Both the position numbers and the translations under genes were made by a program. The notes below the pieces were generated by a model. It was given only the letters and a program-made list of their open reading frames with translations. It did not search any database and had not been told where the DNA came from. A stretch of 64,000 nucleotides of DNA from Escallonia rubra (taxonomy: Eukaryota > Streptophyta > Magnoliopsida > Escalloniales > Escalloniaceae). The DNA lies in assembly GCA_033065855.1 (NCBI GenBank), contig JAVXUO010002681.1, positions 62,001 to 126,000 on the forward strand. The letters are read 5' to 3'. Every line of letters begins with the position of its first letter. Positions within the stretch are counted from its first letter, which is position 1. This document shows positions 10,461 to 56,643 of this stretch, piece by piece.

Positions 10461-11876
10461 TCAGGGTCTTTGACGGACCGACCGAGTCATAGGTGCGTCG
10501 CGCAGCTTCCTTGAGGTGTCCCCAAGACGAAGCTGGAGGTTTTCAAGGTAGACCCTGTAGGTGTCTTTCATGTTCTTGATGCAAATGGGTACAAGGGTCT
10601 CATCTTTACTGAAGTCAGTGCACTCTAAGCACTTGTGATGAAATCGCGTAACATAGGCATTGAGGTCTTCCCCGAAGGTTTGGCGGATTCCGACAATCTT
10701 AACGATGGTCACACGTTCCTTCTCATAGTGAAACTTGTCAAGGAAGAGCTGAACCATGTCAGACCAGGAGTGGATAGTGCCGTCAGGGATCTGGTGGTAC
10801 CAAGAGTAGGCAAGGCCAGTCAGAGACTTGTGAAATTCCTGAAGCTTCAAAGTGTCGCTCGGGCCATATTGCCCCAATGAACCGACGAATCTTGTTAAGT
10901 GCTCACGGGCGTTGCCCTCACGTCCGTTAAAGAGCACAAAGGTGGGTTGCTTGTATTTGAGTGGGTATGGTGTGATGGCTATGTCGTTGGCATATGGTGC
11001 ATGGCCTGTCAGTCGGGCTGATGAGTCAGGTGCAGAATTCTGTGATAGTCGGTGGAGGAGTGCGTCGAAGTCTGACTTAGAGACGTAGTGGGGGGATGGT
11101 GCTTCATGGCCAGCTAAGGGGTGATGGCTGGCTGGGGAGCCGCGAGCCCCCGAGCCCTCTGACGGGGCAAGTTGATGAGCCGGAGCAATAGAATGATGAT
11201 ATATGACAGGTGCAACTAATGGAAAGTGTAAGGGGGCAAGGGTGGGTGGGCGAGACATAGCCACCACTTGACCAGTTGTTTGATGTTGCTCTGTTGGGTA
11301 GGGGTTAGGCTCCATCTCAATGAACTCGTGAGTTTTGGAAGAGCTTCTGGCTGGCACATATTGAGGTGCAACAACAGGGAGGACATGTTGCAACACTGGT
11401 CCAAGGTCTGTTTGCGGTCTGCGTGATGGCATCACGGGATGTGGTGTATCAGCTACAGGTGGTGAAGATGTCGCGAGTCCTACCGCCAAGGGTCTGGGTG
11501 ATCGAAGCGGCAGTGGTCCCGACACTGGCGCCGGAGCGGCATCAGGAGCCAACCCAGGTCCTAAAAGTCAGACTGGTGCACGAGGTTGTTGTGAGGCCAA
11601 CGCCTGTATGGATCTTTGCATTTCTAAAATTGCGGCCATGAGAGTGGCCTGCGAGTCTTGTAGGTTGGCTATAGTCGGGGTTAGCTGTTGTATAGCTGCA
11701 CTGATTACCACTTGTACATCGAGTGCAGCAGCCGAAGGTTGATCCTGGGGTCGTGCAGCACTAGTCTCCTCATGGTCGTCAAGGTGATGCTCCTCTTGGA
11801 AGGTGGGGTTGAGGCCTTGGATGGCGGGGTTGAGGCCTTGGCGGGCTGACCTGGTAGCTCTCCGTTGTACAGGCAT
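10461..11876 (-). pseudogene. gypsy gag of element C
   Basis: Near-complete gag. The ATG at 11876 begins MPVQRRATRSARQ and follows the PBS by 28 bp. An N-terminal helical/glutamine-rich part (11876-11571) ends at an in-frame TGA (11568-11570), after which the same frame continues through a proline-rich stretch to a clear Retrotrans_gag domain (about 11000-10560). That domain holds LTRFVGSLGQYGPSDTLKLQ, AYSWYHQIPDG, and FHHKCLECTDFSKDETLVPI. A frameshift near 10530 ends the open frame at 10461, while homology to the gag of element A continues in another frame. With the TGA read through it is about 470 codons, a normal gag size. It would supply or interact with capsid protein; no enzymatic domain follows. 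Confidence 0.88.
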
Positions 11877-35547: not shown

Positions 35548-38240
35548 TCAATCACTATCACTAATAGACAACGGAACGTCTTCCTCCTCTTCGTCATCTC
35601 CGTCCCCTTCATCTTCATCGTCTTTTTCTTCGTCATCAACTTCTTCCTCGGAATCATCGTCATCATCACCATCATCATCACGGAGGGCTTCAACATCGAC
35701 CTCTTCTCCAGCATGGCCTAAATCGCAAAGAGGCTCATCAACAAAATCGTTATCCTCCTGATGCGGTATCACTGCGGGAGCATCGTCCTCTTGGTACATC
35801 TCAACAAACACATCATCACCAACAAAGCCTCTTTTGGTCTTGATAACAGTATGTCAATTTGGGTCCTTCCTTGTCACACCCTTTGCATGGAAGACCTGCG
35901 TTGCTTGAGCTGCAAATACAAATAGTTTGTACGATCCGAGCCTTGACCTCATTTTAACGTCTACAATCTCATGTCGACTAACTCGAATACTAGCTGTAAT
36001 GTCAAAGCATCTGCACTTGAACATTACCAATCGATTACCGCTGTCAAAATAATCTAGTTCAATAACCTCCTCCAACCGCCCATAAAAATCACACTCACTA
36101 TCATTATAACAGTCACCTTTGACTAAAACTTCACTGTTTTGGGTTTGTTTACTAAGTTCAACTTCCATCGTGTTAAGCCTAAACCCGCTGTCAATGTACC
36201 CTTTATAACACGAAACTAGTCTACTAGGACCAGCAGCAAGCAATTTGAGACTAACATCAACTCCATCCTGGACGGTCTACAATAACAAACAATTTGCACA
36301 AAAAATTAAGTTATGACATCGTATATACCATCTCACTATATTAGAAATGAGATGTAATTTTAGAACTTATGCGCTTTCGGAACCACTCAGGGAATGTGTT
36401 GTTTCGCATTTTTTCAAGTTGTCCATCTGATATCCCAGGGTTTGTGAATAACACTTCCTCATTGTATTCACTGTATGTTATATAGTATCATCGTTATATT
36501 ATGTTCTTGAACTATGAGAAGGAAGATATATACACAACTACTTACACTATGAATGGTGCAATTTTATTGCAATTCATAAGATCGTACAATGTTGCGGCAA
36601 TATACTTTTCCTCGGATAAATATCGACCACTCCTTGTTCCAAGTGCACGACCAAGATGCATGAATATGGAAAGACACTCATCGAATTCTATGTCGACATT
36701 ATTATCACTGCGACCAAGCCACTTCATCCTTTTATCAGCATCAGTCTCAAAGTAAAGGAGCAGAAGTTAGTAAGCTCCTCAAGGATGTAAGCTTCTGCAA
36801 TTGAACCTTCAACGTGGGCTTTGTTATGCACTTTTTTTTTTAAGGTCAAACATATATACCTATGTAAGAAATAAGTCATTTTCAGTAAACAACACATGTG
36901 TGCAAGTATGAAATACAATTTAAAAATAGATGAGCCACATCACCTCTCAAATGGATACATCCACCAATACTGCACAAGTCCGCCCACTCTAGCCTCATAT
37001 GCTAAGTGAATCGAGTCAAAGAATGACGGGGGAAATATTTTCTCTAACTTGCACATTGTCTCAACAATGTTTTTCTGAAGAATCTTAGCATCACTCTCTC
37101 GGAGCACCTTTAAGCACAAATCGCGAAGGAAATGACTAAGCTCGGTCAATGCTTAATTTACTGGCTTCGGTAAGAGGTCACGAAAGACAATTGGTATAAA
37201 CATTTTCATAAACCATGACAATCATGACTCTTTAAACCATAAAACTTATAATCAGCAAGGTTGCATCAACGTGATATATTAGATACATAGCCATCTGGCA
37301 GCTTCAGCAGTTTAACCCACTTACACTTTTTTGTATCTGCATTTTATCCAATGTGTATATTGCTTTGGGCAAAACCAGCTTACCATTAACCATTCTTGGA
37401 TGCAATTCATGACGTATATCAATTTTCTGCATATCTCAGCGTGCTTTTAGGTGATCTTTTGATTTACCCTTGACATTCATGACTGTATTAAACACATTTT
37501 CAAAAATATTTTTCTCAATGTGCATAACATCAAGATTGTTGCGGAGAAGGAGGGTCAGCCAACAAGGCAGCTCCCAAAAGATGCACATTTTCTTCCAGTT
37601 GTGTGTTTTTTCAAAGCCAGGAAGTTTTAGACTGTCAGCACATTTTTCAAATGGTACCGCATCCATGTCAAGGTCCTTTATGCACATAAACACTTCATCC
37701 CCAGATAATCAATCACGTGTTTCAATGCGACGCTCCACAATTTTATCAAACTTATCTTTTTGCCTTCGAAATAGATGATTATGCCGTAAGAATTATCTAT
37801 GATACCCCCAAAAGGAAGCCTTCAATTCCCCCCGTGCTCTAAGGTGAAAGCCTTTACTCACTTTCATACAATAAGGACATGCCAACCTACCATGTGTACT
37901 CCACCCACACAACATACCATATGCAGGAGATTCATTGATAGTCCACGTGACTGTTGCCCTCAAGTTGAAGTTATGTTCAAGAGATGCATCAAATGCTGGG
38001 GCTCCAACTTCCCACATAATTTTTAACTCATCGATCAACGGCCGCAAGTACACGTTTATATTTCTACCCGGGCTCGTAGGTCCAGGAACAAGTAATGATA
38101 TAAACATGAATTGCTTCTTCATGCGCATGTCTGGAGGAAGGTTATACATGAGAATGCTCACATGCCACGTAGAGTAAGGTGTGCTAGAGTGTCCAAAAGG
38201 ATTAAAACCATCAGTAGCGAGCCGAAGTTGCACATTTCGT
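35548..38240 (-). pseudogene. CACTA TNP2-like transposase
   Basis: Minus-strand domains in order: Transposase_21 (PF02992) with LRLATDGFNPFG, YSTWHVSILMYNLPP and LLVPGPTSPGRNINVYL (38240-37793), then LRNNLDVMHIEKNIFENV (37560-37490). Next is a DUF4218-type region with LCKVLRESDAK-like and KIFPPSFFDSIHL segments and WMYPFER (37149-36945). Then NKAHVEGSIAEAYILEEL (about 36830-36770), LGRALGTRSGRYLSEEK (36650-36600), a DUF4216 region (FYGRLEEVIELDYFDSGNR, about 36090-36030) and an acidic tail ending at 35548. TNP2 catalyses CACTA excision and integration. Stops and frame changes between blocks, some possibly introns, and the missing N-terminus make it non-functional. Confidence 0.9.
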
Positions 38241-39094
38241 AGGTATAATTTAGCCTATATTTGTAAACTTTGTAAAACTAAGAAGCCAATCATACACCTT
38301 ATAAAACTCTAGCTCATCATTGTACCTATATATTAGGCCCTAATTTTGATTATTAACACCTTATAGGGTTCAATAATCATATTTGTTTTGATGTTCTTTT
38401 CTTTTCCCACCTATATTTTGGTGTTCTTTTCTTTTCCTACCTGATTTAACTTTTTCGTATGCTTTATTATTAGAAAATTCGTACGTATAATTTTCTCTAT
38501 ATTTGTAAATTTTATAAAACTAAGAAACCAATCATACTCCTCATAAAACTCTACCTAATCATTATACTTATATATTAGGCCATAGTTTTGATTATTAACA
38601 CCTTATTTTGGTGCTTTGAAATCTCTATAATATTCTCATGTATCTTCCTGCTCCGTCAAAGACGTTAGGATTGTTGATTACAGCTTTGTGCGTATATAAC
38701 ATGTATGAACAACATAAGTTACGAGATATATATGGATGTATGTTACATGTTTGTTAGAAATTTCAACAATCAATAGTATAACTTAATGCGCGTTTGTTTT
38801 ACCTTTTAAAATTAGAAGGAAGACAATTTCTTAAACCTATCCCGTGCATCTGCATGGGTTCATTAGTGCATTTGCATGGGTCCATTAGCTAGTACTATGT
38901 AAAAGAGATAAGGCTCCTCTAGAAAATATGTGTGCCCGCACCCTCTGAAATAAGGAGCATGATACTCCAATAAAATCCCAGCATGGCGAAGTATATACCA
39001 AGTTCTCTTGCTTTGTTCTACTTTCTATATGTCCAGTACACCAAAGTCGCCTCTCGGAAGAAACCCTAACAAGTCATGCAGCTTTGAGGAGTGA
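38241..39094. repeat. AT-rich duplicated segment before the F-box pseudogene
   Basis: About 125 bp at 38243-38365 is repeated with substitutions at about 38480-38610 (shared TATATTTGTAAA, ACTAAGAA.CCAATCATAC, TATATTAGGCC). A short TGTTCTTTTCTTTTCC.ACCT duplication lies between them. 38611-39000 shows no gene; 39000-39094 is upstream sequence of the F-box pseudogene, with an ATG at 39029 followed by an in-frame TGA. Confidence 0.7.
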
Positions 39095-49063: not shown

Positions 49064-50142
49064 ATGGCGCCAAATACTTTGACGAAGTATGATTTGGAGA
49101 AATTTGATGGATCAAACGATTTTAGTTTATGGAGAATGAAGATGTGTGCTGTTCTAATTCAGCAAGGGTTGTTGAAAGCATTAAAAGAGAAACAAGGGCT
49201 TCTTGATACGATGTCTGATGATGAAAAAGAAGACATGTTGGAGAAAGCCCATAGTGCCATGTTACTGTGTTTCACCGACAACGTGTTACGAAAGGTTTCT
49301 CAGGAAACGACTGCGGCAGGATTATGGCTAAAATTGGAGAGCTTATACATGGCAAAATCTCTGACAAATCGCCTATATTTAAACAACTGTTGTATACTCT
49401 TTGAATGAAAGAAGGTACATCGACCAGTGATCATCTTGACGAATATAACAATGTAATATTAGACCTGCAAAATATTGATATCAAGATAGAAGATGAGGAT
49501 AAAGCTTTAATGGTTTGTACGAGACTGGATATTTCTCATGCTGTCAGTGTGGTTAGCAGGTACATGGGTAATCCTGGGATAGCTCATTGGCAGGCAGTAA
49601 AGTGGATACTTCGATACCTAAGAGGTACTGCAGATACTGGTTTAGTCTACCATCGAGGCAATGATGTTAATGGTAGAGTTGTTGGATATGTGGATTCAAA
49701 CTACACTGGAGATTTGGATAGGACGAGATCTTTGACAGGTTATGTCTTCACTTTTTTGAGCTGTGTGATAAGTTGGAAGGCTACTCTTCAGACTATTGTT
49801 GCCTTGTCTACCACAGAAGCTGAGTATATAGCAGCGACCGAAGCAGTGAAGGAAGCTATTTGGTTGAAGGGATTAGTTGCTGTTTTGGGTTTGAAGCAGG
49901 AGTGTAGCACTGTTTACTGCAGCAGCCGAAGTGCCATACATCTGACCAAAAATTAGATGTTCCATGAGCGGACCAAGCACATTGATGTCAGGTTTACTTT
50001 TATTCGGGATATGGTTTCTCAGGGTACTATTATGGTAGAGAAGATTTCTACATATGAAAATTCAGCAGACATGATGACAAAGTATATTCAAGAGATCAAG
50101 TTTAAGCACTGCTTAGATTTGATCGGTTTTAGCAGTATTTGA
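49064..50142 (+). pseudogene. copia gag fused to RNase H by deletion
   Basis: 49064-49390 encodes a copia gag start (KYDLEKFDGSNDFSLWRMKM; AAGLWLKLESLYMAKSLTNR). A one-base shift near 49380 and a TGA at 49402-49404 (CTTTGAATG, where relatives have Arg) precede MKEGTSTSDHLDEYNNVILD and KIEDEDKALMV. From about 49515 the same frame becomes RNase H: CTRLDISHAVSVVSRYMGNP, WILRYLRGTADTGLVY, ALSTTEAEYIAATEA. TAG at 49954-49956 (relatives have Gln) is followed by MFHERTKHIDVRFTFIRDMV and a tail ending at 50142. All enzymatic parts needed for copying are lost. Confidence 0.88.
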
Positions 50143-53274: not shown

Positions 53275-54725
53275 CTTAACGCCATATCATGATGTCATGT
53301 TAGTGTGAATTTAGTGATTTAAATATAGAATAAAAGCTGAGACTAACATGCATGAACTATGAATGTTGAAATGAGCTTGACAAAACACTATGAAAAGTAC
53401 TCGTATTAACGGGCTTATACATTTCACCATATGAAAAAAAACTCAAAAGTCCAAGGATCTCAAGAACATGCAAACAATCATTGCTAAACAATAATACAGA
53501 CAAAAGCCTATGAGGTTAAAGGACTAAAAACAAACAAATTATTTCTGGAAACTCTAATATGATGTTCAACATTGGTCTAAACATAAATAATAAGGGTGAG
53601 GTTGCCTTAAGTTGAGCTAAAAGGGACAAAAAAAGTTATAAATAGAAATGTAACACCCCAAAATCTAGGCCTGACTTTCTACTTTAGTAGTTGTATATTT
53701 TTTAGTGATTATTATAATATTTTAACGACTATTAACTTAGCAATATATATAAAAAAAAAATTGAAATGATAGAGAGCGATTTGGGATATAAAGAAGGAAA
53801 CTTTTGAAGCAATTAAATGAATATTTGTTTATAAATAGGCAAAACAAAATAAAGGAGTTAAAAAAAAGAGAGAGATTAAAGACAGAAAAGAGAGAAGATG
53901 AGAAAGGAGAAACGGGGGCGGCCGGCCCTAAAGTAGGCGCCTCTGCAACGTCTGGGCAGCCCCATCGCCGACCCCGCGGTGGTTACCGGCAGCCAAACCC
54001 AGCAGCTTCTTCACCGCGCCGCCCACACGCGGTCACCGGCGGCCGATCCCAACCAGCCGTGGATTGTCTATGCGCCGCTACTGTCATGGCATCGCAGCCA
54101 CAACGACGGCCAACGGTAGCTATTCCGGCGACGGGATGCCGCTAAAGACGGTGCTGGGGTAGCCAACAACTCGTCGTACTGCCGGGTTCTTGATTCCACT
54201 TGCCACCACTAATATCTCCCTTAACACGGCCCAGATCAGCCTGTACTGCTAGCTACGGGACACCGGCGAGGCCAACCGGCCGGTGAGGGCGGTGCCGGAG
54301 ACCAAGAACGTGTCTGTCATCATGGGTCTTTTGCTTAATCGCAGCAAAGTTGTTGAGAATTTAATGGAATCGGAATCACTAACCGAAGACTTTGAGGCGC
54401 GTGATCGTTTCTTTAAAATTTTATTTGTCCTCACTCGAAAACGAGTTTGCTGATGGGTTAGTGACAAATAATCCTTCAGGATACAACAAAATCTGCAGGA
54501 ATCTGCAAACAGCAAAATCGAGAATTTCACTTGGAATTCTCTTTGAAGCAATGTACGTTTTTTGCTATAGAAATTTTGCAAAAAGAGAAGATTTTGAAAA
54601 TTTCAAAATTAATATGCTGAAAGAACTAAAAATCTGAAAAAATGTATGAATTTTGGACAGACACAACTGTTAGGAAATCAAAACAGTTGTAACAGTTCAA
54701 AAAAAATAACTGCCAAAAATTAATT

Positions 54726-54803
54726 GGGTAAATTACACTAAAACCCCCTGAGGTTTTACGTAATTACACTCCACTACCGCTATCTTTAAAAATTACACTC
54801 CGC
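54726..54803 (+). repeat. Left terminal inverted repeat of the MULE
   Basis: 78 bp, identical to the complement of 55880-55957; ends ATTACACTCCGC. Confidence 0.95.
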
Positions 54804-55258
54804 CCCCTGAGGTTTGTACCCGCATTACACACAACTACACACTTTTAACGGCCCGTCCAACTCCGTTTCAAGATTCTCTGACACACTCATTTATGTAATT
54901 TTCATACCCAAAATACCCCCCTCTTCTCCGGCGACATCTTCTCGCTATCCATTTTCGCTCTGTCGTGACTTGGGTTGTCTGAGTTCTGACATAAGGTGGA
55001 GCCACAGTTGGCAACTCAGTGTGTGTGTGCATGCTTGCCCCAGTTCTGTTGTCCCCTCTAAACACCTTCTATCCTCACAAGCCCAAGAAGCAAAGCCTCC
55101 TCCCTTCTCCATTGTATGCCCAGCCTCGATCTGCCGCTGAGTTGGGTTCTTCCCTGCAGGAACAGTGAAATCAACGCCCCTTTTCTGGATGACTATATGA
55201 ATTTCAACAAAAACTCGAGCATAGTGGCCACGGTCGGCTTCATCTTCATTTTGCAGTG

Positions 55259-55400
55259 AAGCAGTGCCAATACAAGGTGCTGGGGCTTGGCGGCGACTGC
55301 ACCGCCGGCGAGATCCGCTCCGCCTACCGCCGGCTTGTCCTCCAGCGCAACCCGGACAAGCTCGCCCAGTTCGGCATCTCCCCCGCCGCCTACCGCCGGC
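55259..55400 (+). pseudogene. Captured DnaJ (J-domain) fragment
   Basis: Reads KQCQYKVLGLGGDCTAGEIR, SAYRRLVLQRNPDKLAQFGI. This is the start of a J-domain of the JJJ1/DNAJC21 type; the diagnostic HPD is NPD here, so the key His that stimulates Hsp70 ATPase is lost. Only helices I-II are present, ending where LEA2 sequence begins in another frame. Confidence 0.8.
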
Positions 55401-55444
55401 TTTCCCTCCAGGCCTATCAAACATCTCCCTTCCCAGCCTCACAG

Positions 55445-55748
55445 ATCTAAGACCGGCCGTACAACCAACCTTGCCTCGTGCATAGTGGCCACGGTCTTCT
55501 TGCTCTTCCTGGCTGTCGGAATCGTCGTCGTTTATTACTTCCTTCTCTTCAAACCGAAAGACCCTAAGATCGCCGTCGACGTCGTCCAGTTCCCGACCTT
55601 CTCCGTCGCCAACGGCATCGTGGACTTCACCTTCCTCCAGTACGTCACCGTCTCCAACCCCAACCGCGACGCCTTCACCCACTACGACAGCTCCCTCCAA
55701 CTCGCCTACTCCGACGCCCCAGTCGGCTTCATCTTCATTTTGCAGTGA
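55445..55748 (+). pseudogene. Captured LEA2 (NHL-type) fragment
   Basis: Reads TNLASCIVATVFLLFLAVGI, a membrane-spanning segment through VVVYYFLLFKPKDPKIAVDV, then QFPTFSVANGIVDFTF and SNPNRDAFTHYDSSLQLAYS. It matches the transmembrane region and first half of an LEA_2 (PF03168) domain as in NDR1/HIN1-like proteins. It ends GFIFILQ and stop at 55748, about half the usual domain. The frame is open from 55287, but the part before 55445 is out-of-frame DnaJ sequence. Confidence 0.85.
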
Positions 55749-55879
55749 ATCGTGTTGTACAGAGGGGCTTCATCTTCATTTTGGAATTTCAGCCAAATTC
55801 CAGGAAAACATTGTTGAGGGGCATTTATGTCTTTTTGCATTGCATCGTTAACACCGTAAGAAAAAATGTTACTTTTTGA

Positions 55880-55957
55880 GCGGAGTGTAATTTTTAAAGA
55901 TAGCGGTAGTGGAGTGTAATTACGTAAAACCTCAGGGGGTTTTAGTGTAATTTACCC
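55880..55957 (-). repeat. Right terminal inverted repeat of the MULE
   Basis: 78 bp, exact inverse of 54726-54803. Confidence 0.95.
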
Positions 55958-56643
55958 AAATTAATTTGAATAAATCAACATTCGAATTTAAATAAATCAC
56001 ACATCTTTTCAATAAAACTATTTTTAAAAATACAAAATATTTTCTAAAAAATAAATCACGTTTTTCGCGACCGCGGCTAAGTGCTAAGTGCTACTAAACT
56101 CGCGCACCCGCACGCGGGTAGCATGGAGACTAGCACATTCTAGTCTTATTACCAAGTATAAGATAAAAGCACTTTTACCCTTATAAACCCTTTTCAAAAC
56201 TCACTTCCAAGTAATGTTGGATAAAAGAGTGAGTTGTTTTCAAACAACTCAACTCACAAACCCAACAAAAGTTCGGTCCTCGTTTGACGACTTAATTCCT
56301 TCATACGACGAGTTGGAAGGTTAACAGGCATTGGCAGTATTGAAATGTGGAGTTGGGTTTTCTTGTTATAGTTATCGGCTGTGTCGGTGGCTAAAATGGA
56401 TGAAGTGGATGGGTTGTATGTGTGTAGTGGCAGGTTGATGTGTGTCTTTGGCAGGTGTGAAGAAGTGGTGGTTGTTGGATGATAATTTGTAATAGGGTGT
56501 GTTTAGTGGGTGCTTGTGGGTGTGTGAGTGTATGTGTGTGTATATAGTGTGTGTTTTATGTGTATTTCAGGGAAGTGCGTGACTGTTTCAGAGAGTGTGT
56601 GTGTGTGTGTGTGAATTCAATGCGTGTTAGTGTGTGTGATACA

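Follow-up and report, generated by a model that had tools for sequence, protein, structure and literature searches.

Rice Pack-MULEs (Jiang et al. 2004, as covered in the available text of PMC8903248 and PMC13317346) have the ends of non-autonomous Mutator-like elements (MULEs) and contain fragments of host genes, and some of them hold pieces from several loci. In tomato, the Pack-MULE PM-ZIBP is present as 13 copies with tandem terminal inverted repeats (TIRs) and one single-TIR copy of 944 bp (PMC3310237). The acquisition of genes by Pack-MULEs was called not yet understood in the same source, and gene acquisition was called perplexing in PMC8277862, as far as the accessible parts of these papers go. 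Here we describe an element of Escallonia rubra which is like the rice elements in its ends, in its host gene fragments and in combining pieces from several loci. Very probably it is a Pack-MULE, a non-autonomous Mutator-like element, present here as a young copy that captured gene pieces stepwise; it would have been mobilised in trans and probably rearranged by template switching.

The element comprises 1232 bp (54726-55957) of the window, the 64,000-nt stretch of DNA that was analysed (Table 1). A preliminary description had reported perfect inverted ends of 78 bp and a perfect 9-bp duplication. Both were confirmed: the left and the right TIR showed 0/78 mismatches, and the target site duplication (TSD) AAATTAATT was present without mismatch on both flanks. 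A repeat finder gave arms of 88 nt at 97%, because the TSDs themselves are nearly complementary. The GC content was 69% in the J-domain (J) piece, 57% in the LEA2 piece and 40% in the TIR. The Pfam scan of the element, which covered the longer 5 of the 17 window frames, revealed one DnaJ match and no transposase. With long TIRs, 9-bp TSDs at independent sites, fragments of host genes and no transposase in the frames scanned, the element has the Pack-MULE structure that had been proposed for it. Elsewhere in the window, long frames at 10461-11567, 37793-38254 and 49405-49956 resembled by eye the gag of a Ty3-type element, the transposase of a CACTA-type element and the RNase H of a Copia element, respectively.

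Table 1. Features of the Escallonia rubra element and of its target site (positions in the window).
Feature	Position	Strand	Basis
Left TSD AAATTAATT, 9 bp	54717..54725	.	flanking-repeat comparison
Left TIR, 78 bp, same as the right one	54726..54803	+	0/78 mismatches
Left subterminal region common to types B and C (element positions 79-197)	54804..54922	+	
Left edge of the type-A-only insert	54923..54965	+	matches type A alone (query from 54926)
Third capture: DUF2499 gene 5'UTR, start codon (55031) and transit-peptide pieces	54966..55159	+	internal differences and deletions
About 59 bp after the DUF2499 piece	55160..55218	+	matches type-A copies alone (query to 55215)
LEA2 mini-fragment GCATAGTGGCCACGGTC, 3-bp microhomology GTC to the next piece	55219..55235	+	junction mapping
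Leftover of the second LEA2 3' end with tail (GTCGGCTTCATCTTCATTTTGCA); type B keeps more	55233..55255	+	
J-domain gene fragment; slip repeat 55315-55345 / 55381-55411; GTG for ATG	55256..55411	+	Pfam DnaJ
27-bp LEA2 gene piece upstream of ATG, 100% identical to parent	55409..55435	+	copy L009
LEA2 coding fragment (N-terminal membrane segment)	55435..55739	+	94.8% to parent over 305 bp, copy L009
Tail piece TTGCAGTGAATCGTGTTGTACAGAGGG inherited from types C and B	55740..55766	+	
18-nt filler within the tail deletion	55767..55784	+	17/18 nt match sequence 41 bp upstream
Right subterminal region common to types B and C	55785..55879	+	
Right TIR, 78 bp	55880..55957	-	
Right TSD AAATTAATT, 9 bp	55958..55966	.	

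We searched the genome (566,129,122 bases in 3,222 contigs) for further copies and for the sources of the cargo. The element had at least 196 matches, including at least 18 over its full length (40 of 1658 candidates scored), and is therefore no product of chance. The best match to the LEA2 cargo was located at C879:351939-352433, where an open frame of 218 aa encodes an intact protein (MYEPHRSKTGR...). The proposed LEA2 origin was supported by this parental gene and by a related full protein, P0008, which matched Pfam LEA_2; the LEA2 fragment of the element alone gave no match to Pfam LEA_2. Alignment to the parent, measured on copy L009, the nearest copy to the window (1/1232 positions different), resulted in 94.8% identity over 305 bp.

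The J-domain start that had been read from the sequence was recognised by Pfam (DnaJ, E 1.3e-7 for the window ORF). Candidate parents at C1645:22711 (624 aa) and C1644:86384 (373 aa) showed 87% protein identity (150 of 156 candidates scored). The J piece opens with its ATG in three of the four copies of type C, described below, L046 being without it. The change of HPD to NPD is real in the window copy. It does not hold as a property of the element, since only 6 of the 18 type-A copies carry NPD, 9 have HPD, 2 have HSD and L023 has three bases changed at this spot. A second group of J matches, which have 63-77% identity and stop at about residue 48-55, was found among the same 150 of 156 candidates on contigs C2575, C382, C3129, C1745, C1712, C899, C1011, C1047, C980, C2171 and C1596. 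This group may represent a further set of captured J fragments.

A third capture, the DUF2499 stretch (about 54966-55159), had been missed in the preliminary description. The insert that contains it had 20 matches in the genome (20 of 20 candidates scored), which were 19 type-A copies and C2819:260164-260246. This sole source found was 89% identical over 83 bp, and three pieces were mapped at the locus. It is exon 1 of a gene with a match to PF10693 (E 2.8e-17, for a protein stretch from two exons joined by eye). The family of PF10693, DUF2499, is also called Ycf49-like. With about 10% divergence between the DUF2499 piece and this source, the actual parent may be a paralogue that has been lost or was not assembled. 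The Pfam scan of the ORFs of the third capture in the element revealed no match. For 54923-54965 there was no genome match outside type A, and 55160-55218 had no genome source besides type-A copies and none in the DUF2499 locus; the latter stretch is possibly a fourth captured source. All three captures are gene starts, because they include the ATG of the J gene, the 5'UTR and ATG of LEA2, and upstream sequence and ATG of the DUF2499 gene.

The copies fall into types that share the ends and the TSD habit and differ in their arrangement. Type C1 (L045-L047) consists of the ends, the start of the J-domain gene, a middle part and the tail, without LEA2. C2 (L040) has the layout of C1 with 500-odd bases of LEA2 ahead of the tail, a capture that covers 522 bp of the parent locus at 94.5%. 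In type B (16 copies) a LEA2 3' end stands ahead of J, the J piece has an internal slip repeat, and it is followed by the LEA2 5'UTR and N-terminal half and then the tail. Type A, to which the window copy belongs, comprises at least 18 full-length copies with 97-100% identity and one truncated copy (L026), which was left out of all alignments. Compared to type B, type A has lost most of the front LEA2 piece, about 200 bp of the LEA2 5'UTR and much of the tail, and has gained an insert of about 290 bp. Types B (94.7-98.7% pairwise identity) and C (93.4-97.7% among the four copies) are more diverged than type A.

In the tree of the LEA2 part the parent grouped with C2 (91/88), type A formed one clade (97/91) apart from B, and B was not resolved; support was weak for 20 of 26 inner branches, and the bootstrap had not yet converged. 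The LEA2-to-tail junction is common to C2 and B, and the J-to-LEA2 junctions differ between them. Type B is therefore no simple descendant of the single C2 copy seen, and a direct C2-to-B lineage was discarded. From the C, B and A copies we infer that the J start was captured first, followed by the LEA2 5'UTR with the N-terminal half, then by the second LEA2 3' end before J, and by the DUF2499 piece in type A only. The earlier suggestion of repeated capture or internal rearrangement can thus be extended: both happened, and the order can be read from the surviving types.

Sequence words shared within the element helped to define how the pieces were joined. GCATAGTGGCCACGGTC starts at 55219 and 55480, and GGCTTCATCTTCATTTTG starts at 55236, 55725 and 55766. 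Both words had been noted before as shared between the main LEA2 piece and a second, internally deleted one; they are real, with positions given slightly off and the third copy of GGCTTCATCTTCATTTTG overlooked. At 55219, GCATAGTGGCCACGGTC is a LEA2 scrap joined by the 3-bp microhomology GTC. The copy of GGCTTCATCTTCATTTTG at 55236 is a leftover of the front LEA2 3' end, which type B has preserved; the copy at 55725 represents the LEA2-to-tail junction, with a microhomology of 4 bp (CATT); and the copy at 55766 belongs to the 18-nt filler of the tail deletion, of which 17 nt match the junction 41 bp upstream. The deletion in the LEA2 5'UTR shows a microhomology of 1 bp (A). Three junctions were resolved in this way, with microhomologies of 1, 3 and 4 bp, in addition to one templated filler. 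The LEA2-to-tail junction could be resolved with L045 as the type-C source; L047, which carries a substitution at this point, did not resolve it. Junction mapping gave no two clean sources for the left breakpoint of the insert, the slip repeat in J, the J-to-LEA2 junction of type B and the junction of LEA2/tail to J in type B.

Both the filler and the second LEA2 3' end duplicate sequence that is still present at its source, which requires copying. This points to repair synthesis with template switching, and end joining alone explains the copied pieces less easily. The same Pack-MULE could have obtained its mixed interior by end joining, nested insertion and deletion without template switching. 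Microhomologies of 1-4 bp fit this course of events too, and most of the breakpoints tried did not yield their two sources, but it leaves the two pieces with retained sources to be accounted for, and we consider it unlikely.

Sites of C-to-T change were frequent in all sequence contexts. In type B (all 16 copies) they amounted to 63/166 (0.38) for CG, 46/126 (0.365) for CHG and 89/446 (0.20) for CHH, compared to 26/714 (0.036) for A/T transitions. The values for type A were 12/140 (0.086), 20/122 (0.164) and 20/367 (0.054), compared to 8/599 (0.013). An excess in CG, CHG and CHH is the pattern expected of RNA-directed methylation, and links between Pack-MULEs and small RNAs are described in the available text of PMC13317346 and PMC4858842. 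The family might therefore matter as a source of small RNAs that would silence the LEA2, J-domain and DUF2499 parents. As the cargo is about 5% (LEA2) and about 10% (DUF2499) off from the sources found, we regard such a role as rather improbable.

We also tested whether the LEA2 frame was under purifying selection. In the frame of all 16 type-B copies we observed 38 non-synonymous (N) changes, 27 synonymous (S) changes and 2 stops, while 41.6, 28.6 and 1.5 were expected from the mutation spectrum of the remainder of the same elements. In a class-matched simulation the probability of so few N changes plus stops was P = 0.57, and purifying selection on the type-B LEA2 frame was not detected. The observed changes match the neutral prediction and therefore give no sign of selection. 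It is very improbable that selection maintains the chimera as a working gene of the host or of the element, be its product a J-LEA2 fusion or a small protein of the membrane. LEA2 frames were intact in 12 of 14 copies, the failure of L028 being only a 6-nt in-frame insertion, and the naive N/S ratio was 0.47. Both values were obtained with C2 and 13 of the 16 type-B copies, three having been dropped as the anchor word was absent. The low ratio vanished under the spectrum from the rest of the elements, and we rejected selection on the cargo. Type-A ratios were 0.84 for LEA2 and 1.05 for J, with few changes, and the J-LEA2 fusion model P0007 needs a private G-to-A change that creates its ATG. 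The neutral LEA2 changes together with the C-to-T excess let us read the cargo as non-functional; judged from these substitution patterns, it probably drifts neutrally and is methylated.

A gene function might also be suggested by NCBI models, which label copies of E. rubra and E. herrerae as LEA2 or J-domain proteins. Length-limited searches with the LEA2 query resulted in 11 models of E. rubra and 2 of E. herrerae, those with the J query in 16 and 6, with P0031 in both lists. All 11 E. rubra models of the LEA2 query sit on contigs bearing these elements, and many element copies are annotated as genes. The gene sets of E. rubra and E. herrerae seem to be inflated by Pack-MULE fragments, and the published sets include transposon-borne fragments. 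In E. herrerae, the LEA2-tail models P0001 and P0004 have the chimeric ending FIFILQ, and the J models P0158 and P0163 show the slip and the LEA2 junction of type B. Both this form and the capture of LEA2 therefore predate the split of the species, unless they were passed later. The type-A joint (AYQTSPFPASQI, P0161, P0165) was found in E. rubra models only, among the matches of the two length-limited searches.

Movement of the element is recent, as had been concluded from its perfect ends. The window copy and its six closest relatives are 1-7 positions apart pairwise, and L019 and L020 are identical in sequence, yet their TSDs differ. A perfect 9-bp TSD flanks 11 of the 18 type-A copies; a perfect 10-bp TSD was seen in 2, a 9-bp TSD with one mismatch in 3 and a poor one in 2. 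Perfect 9-bp TSDs were found in 8 of 14 type-B copies (L043 and L030, with damaged ends, were excluded) and in 4 of 4 type-C copies. The flanks of the 18 type-A copies showed no similarity to each other (500 bp each side, E 1e-10). A search for an uninserted site among the fetched loci returned the window itself as the sole match. Different TSDs and unrelated flanks exclude both an assembly artefact, which had been raised as an objection, and segmental duplication, and the other copies carry both cargo and TIRs. Segmental duplication or an assembly error, with inverted repeats from mis-assembly, has next to no probability: the assembly is a draft of 3,222 contigs (566 Mb and 3,233 contigs as published), but it was built from long reads with short-read polishing (PMC10759652, available text), and the 18 copies sit behind different TSDs in unrelated flanks.

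Two loci showed additional structures. In L029 (999-3139) the 9-mer TATCTCCTT occurs three times: left of a partial 5' unit, between the units and right of a type-B element. The partial 5' unit runs 829 bp to the next start and is followed by the full type-B element, an arrangement that corresponds to a duplication that carried the TSD along. In the neighbourhood of one type-A copy, L002 (309-1362) contains a separate MULE-like element of 1054 bp, flanked by a TSD without mismatch (AAAATATTA). Its first bases are GGGCAAATTACAC, and its own two ends differ at 12/60 positions.

In the mechanism that we propose, a MULE transposase recognising the GGGTAAATTACAC ends would move the element in trans. 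When the element breaks, or when an excision gap is under repair, the new strand would switch template at short microhomologies, either to the start of a host gene or to a different region of the element, and then switch back. Such switching would account for captured 5' gene ends, for duplications and deletions in the interior and for templated fillers. The altered forms would amplify afterwards: C1 with the J start, C2 with J and LEA2, B with the LEA2 3' end before J, and as the last form A, with DUF2499 and the deletions of LEA2 and tail. At least 150 matches to the MULE domain (PF10551) were present in the genome (best 150 of 3309 candidates scored), and many open frames of 777-783 aa with near-equal scores were seen among the matches listed. 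This transposase family is apparently large and young. Around the 30 fetched transposase loci, out to about 1.5 kb or as far as the contig reached, we found no pair of these ends and hence no autonomous partner among them. All three captures concern 5' gene ends, and we tentatively consider, as a possibility that remains doubtful, that a broken MULE under repair synthesis switches to DNA near promoters that is open or prone to R-loops. If so, the acquisition step could be read from the junctions of one family across Escallonia species.

We found no description of this element family in the open-licence literature. The family is useful because intermediates survive. Simple, mixed and final forms coexist with the LEA2 parent and the DUF2499 source, and the sister species shows signs of type B; the order and the junctions are therefore testable. 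PM-ZIBP is also a multi-copy asterid Pack-MULE with gene cargo; according to the accessible part of PMC3310237 it has one gene fragment and tandem TIRs, whereas the Escallonia element has three captures and mostly single TIRs. L029 is one Escallonia copy with an extra 5' unit. Helitrons are without TIRs and TSDs and use a different transposition chemistry. In the maize Helitrons that capture stepwise, gene fragments were added serially, as inferred from related copies (PMC3288121, available text), and the same approach was used here. Animal Pack-TIRs, for which gap filling/FoSTeST was proposed, show capture by template switching at microhomologies (median 2 bp) and later amplification of multi-copy forms (PMC8277862); these cases are from animals and are described in the available text as single captures, while the Escallonia captures form a nested series. 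The GC content of the Escallonia cargo is in line with the GC-rich capture reported in rice (PMC4858842, in part). Unlike the rice Pack-MULEs, as far as the available text on them goes, the Escallonia family has at least 18 near-identical copies with other stages surviving, in a campanulid shrub. The element is of the ordinary Pack-MULE kind and an unusually legible case of it.
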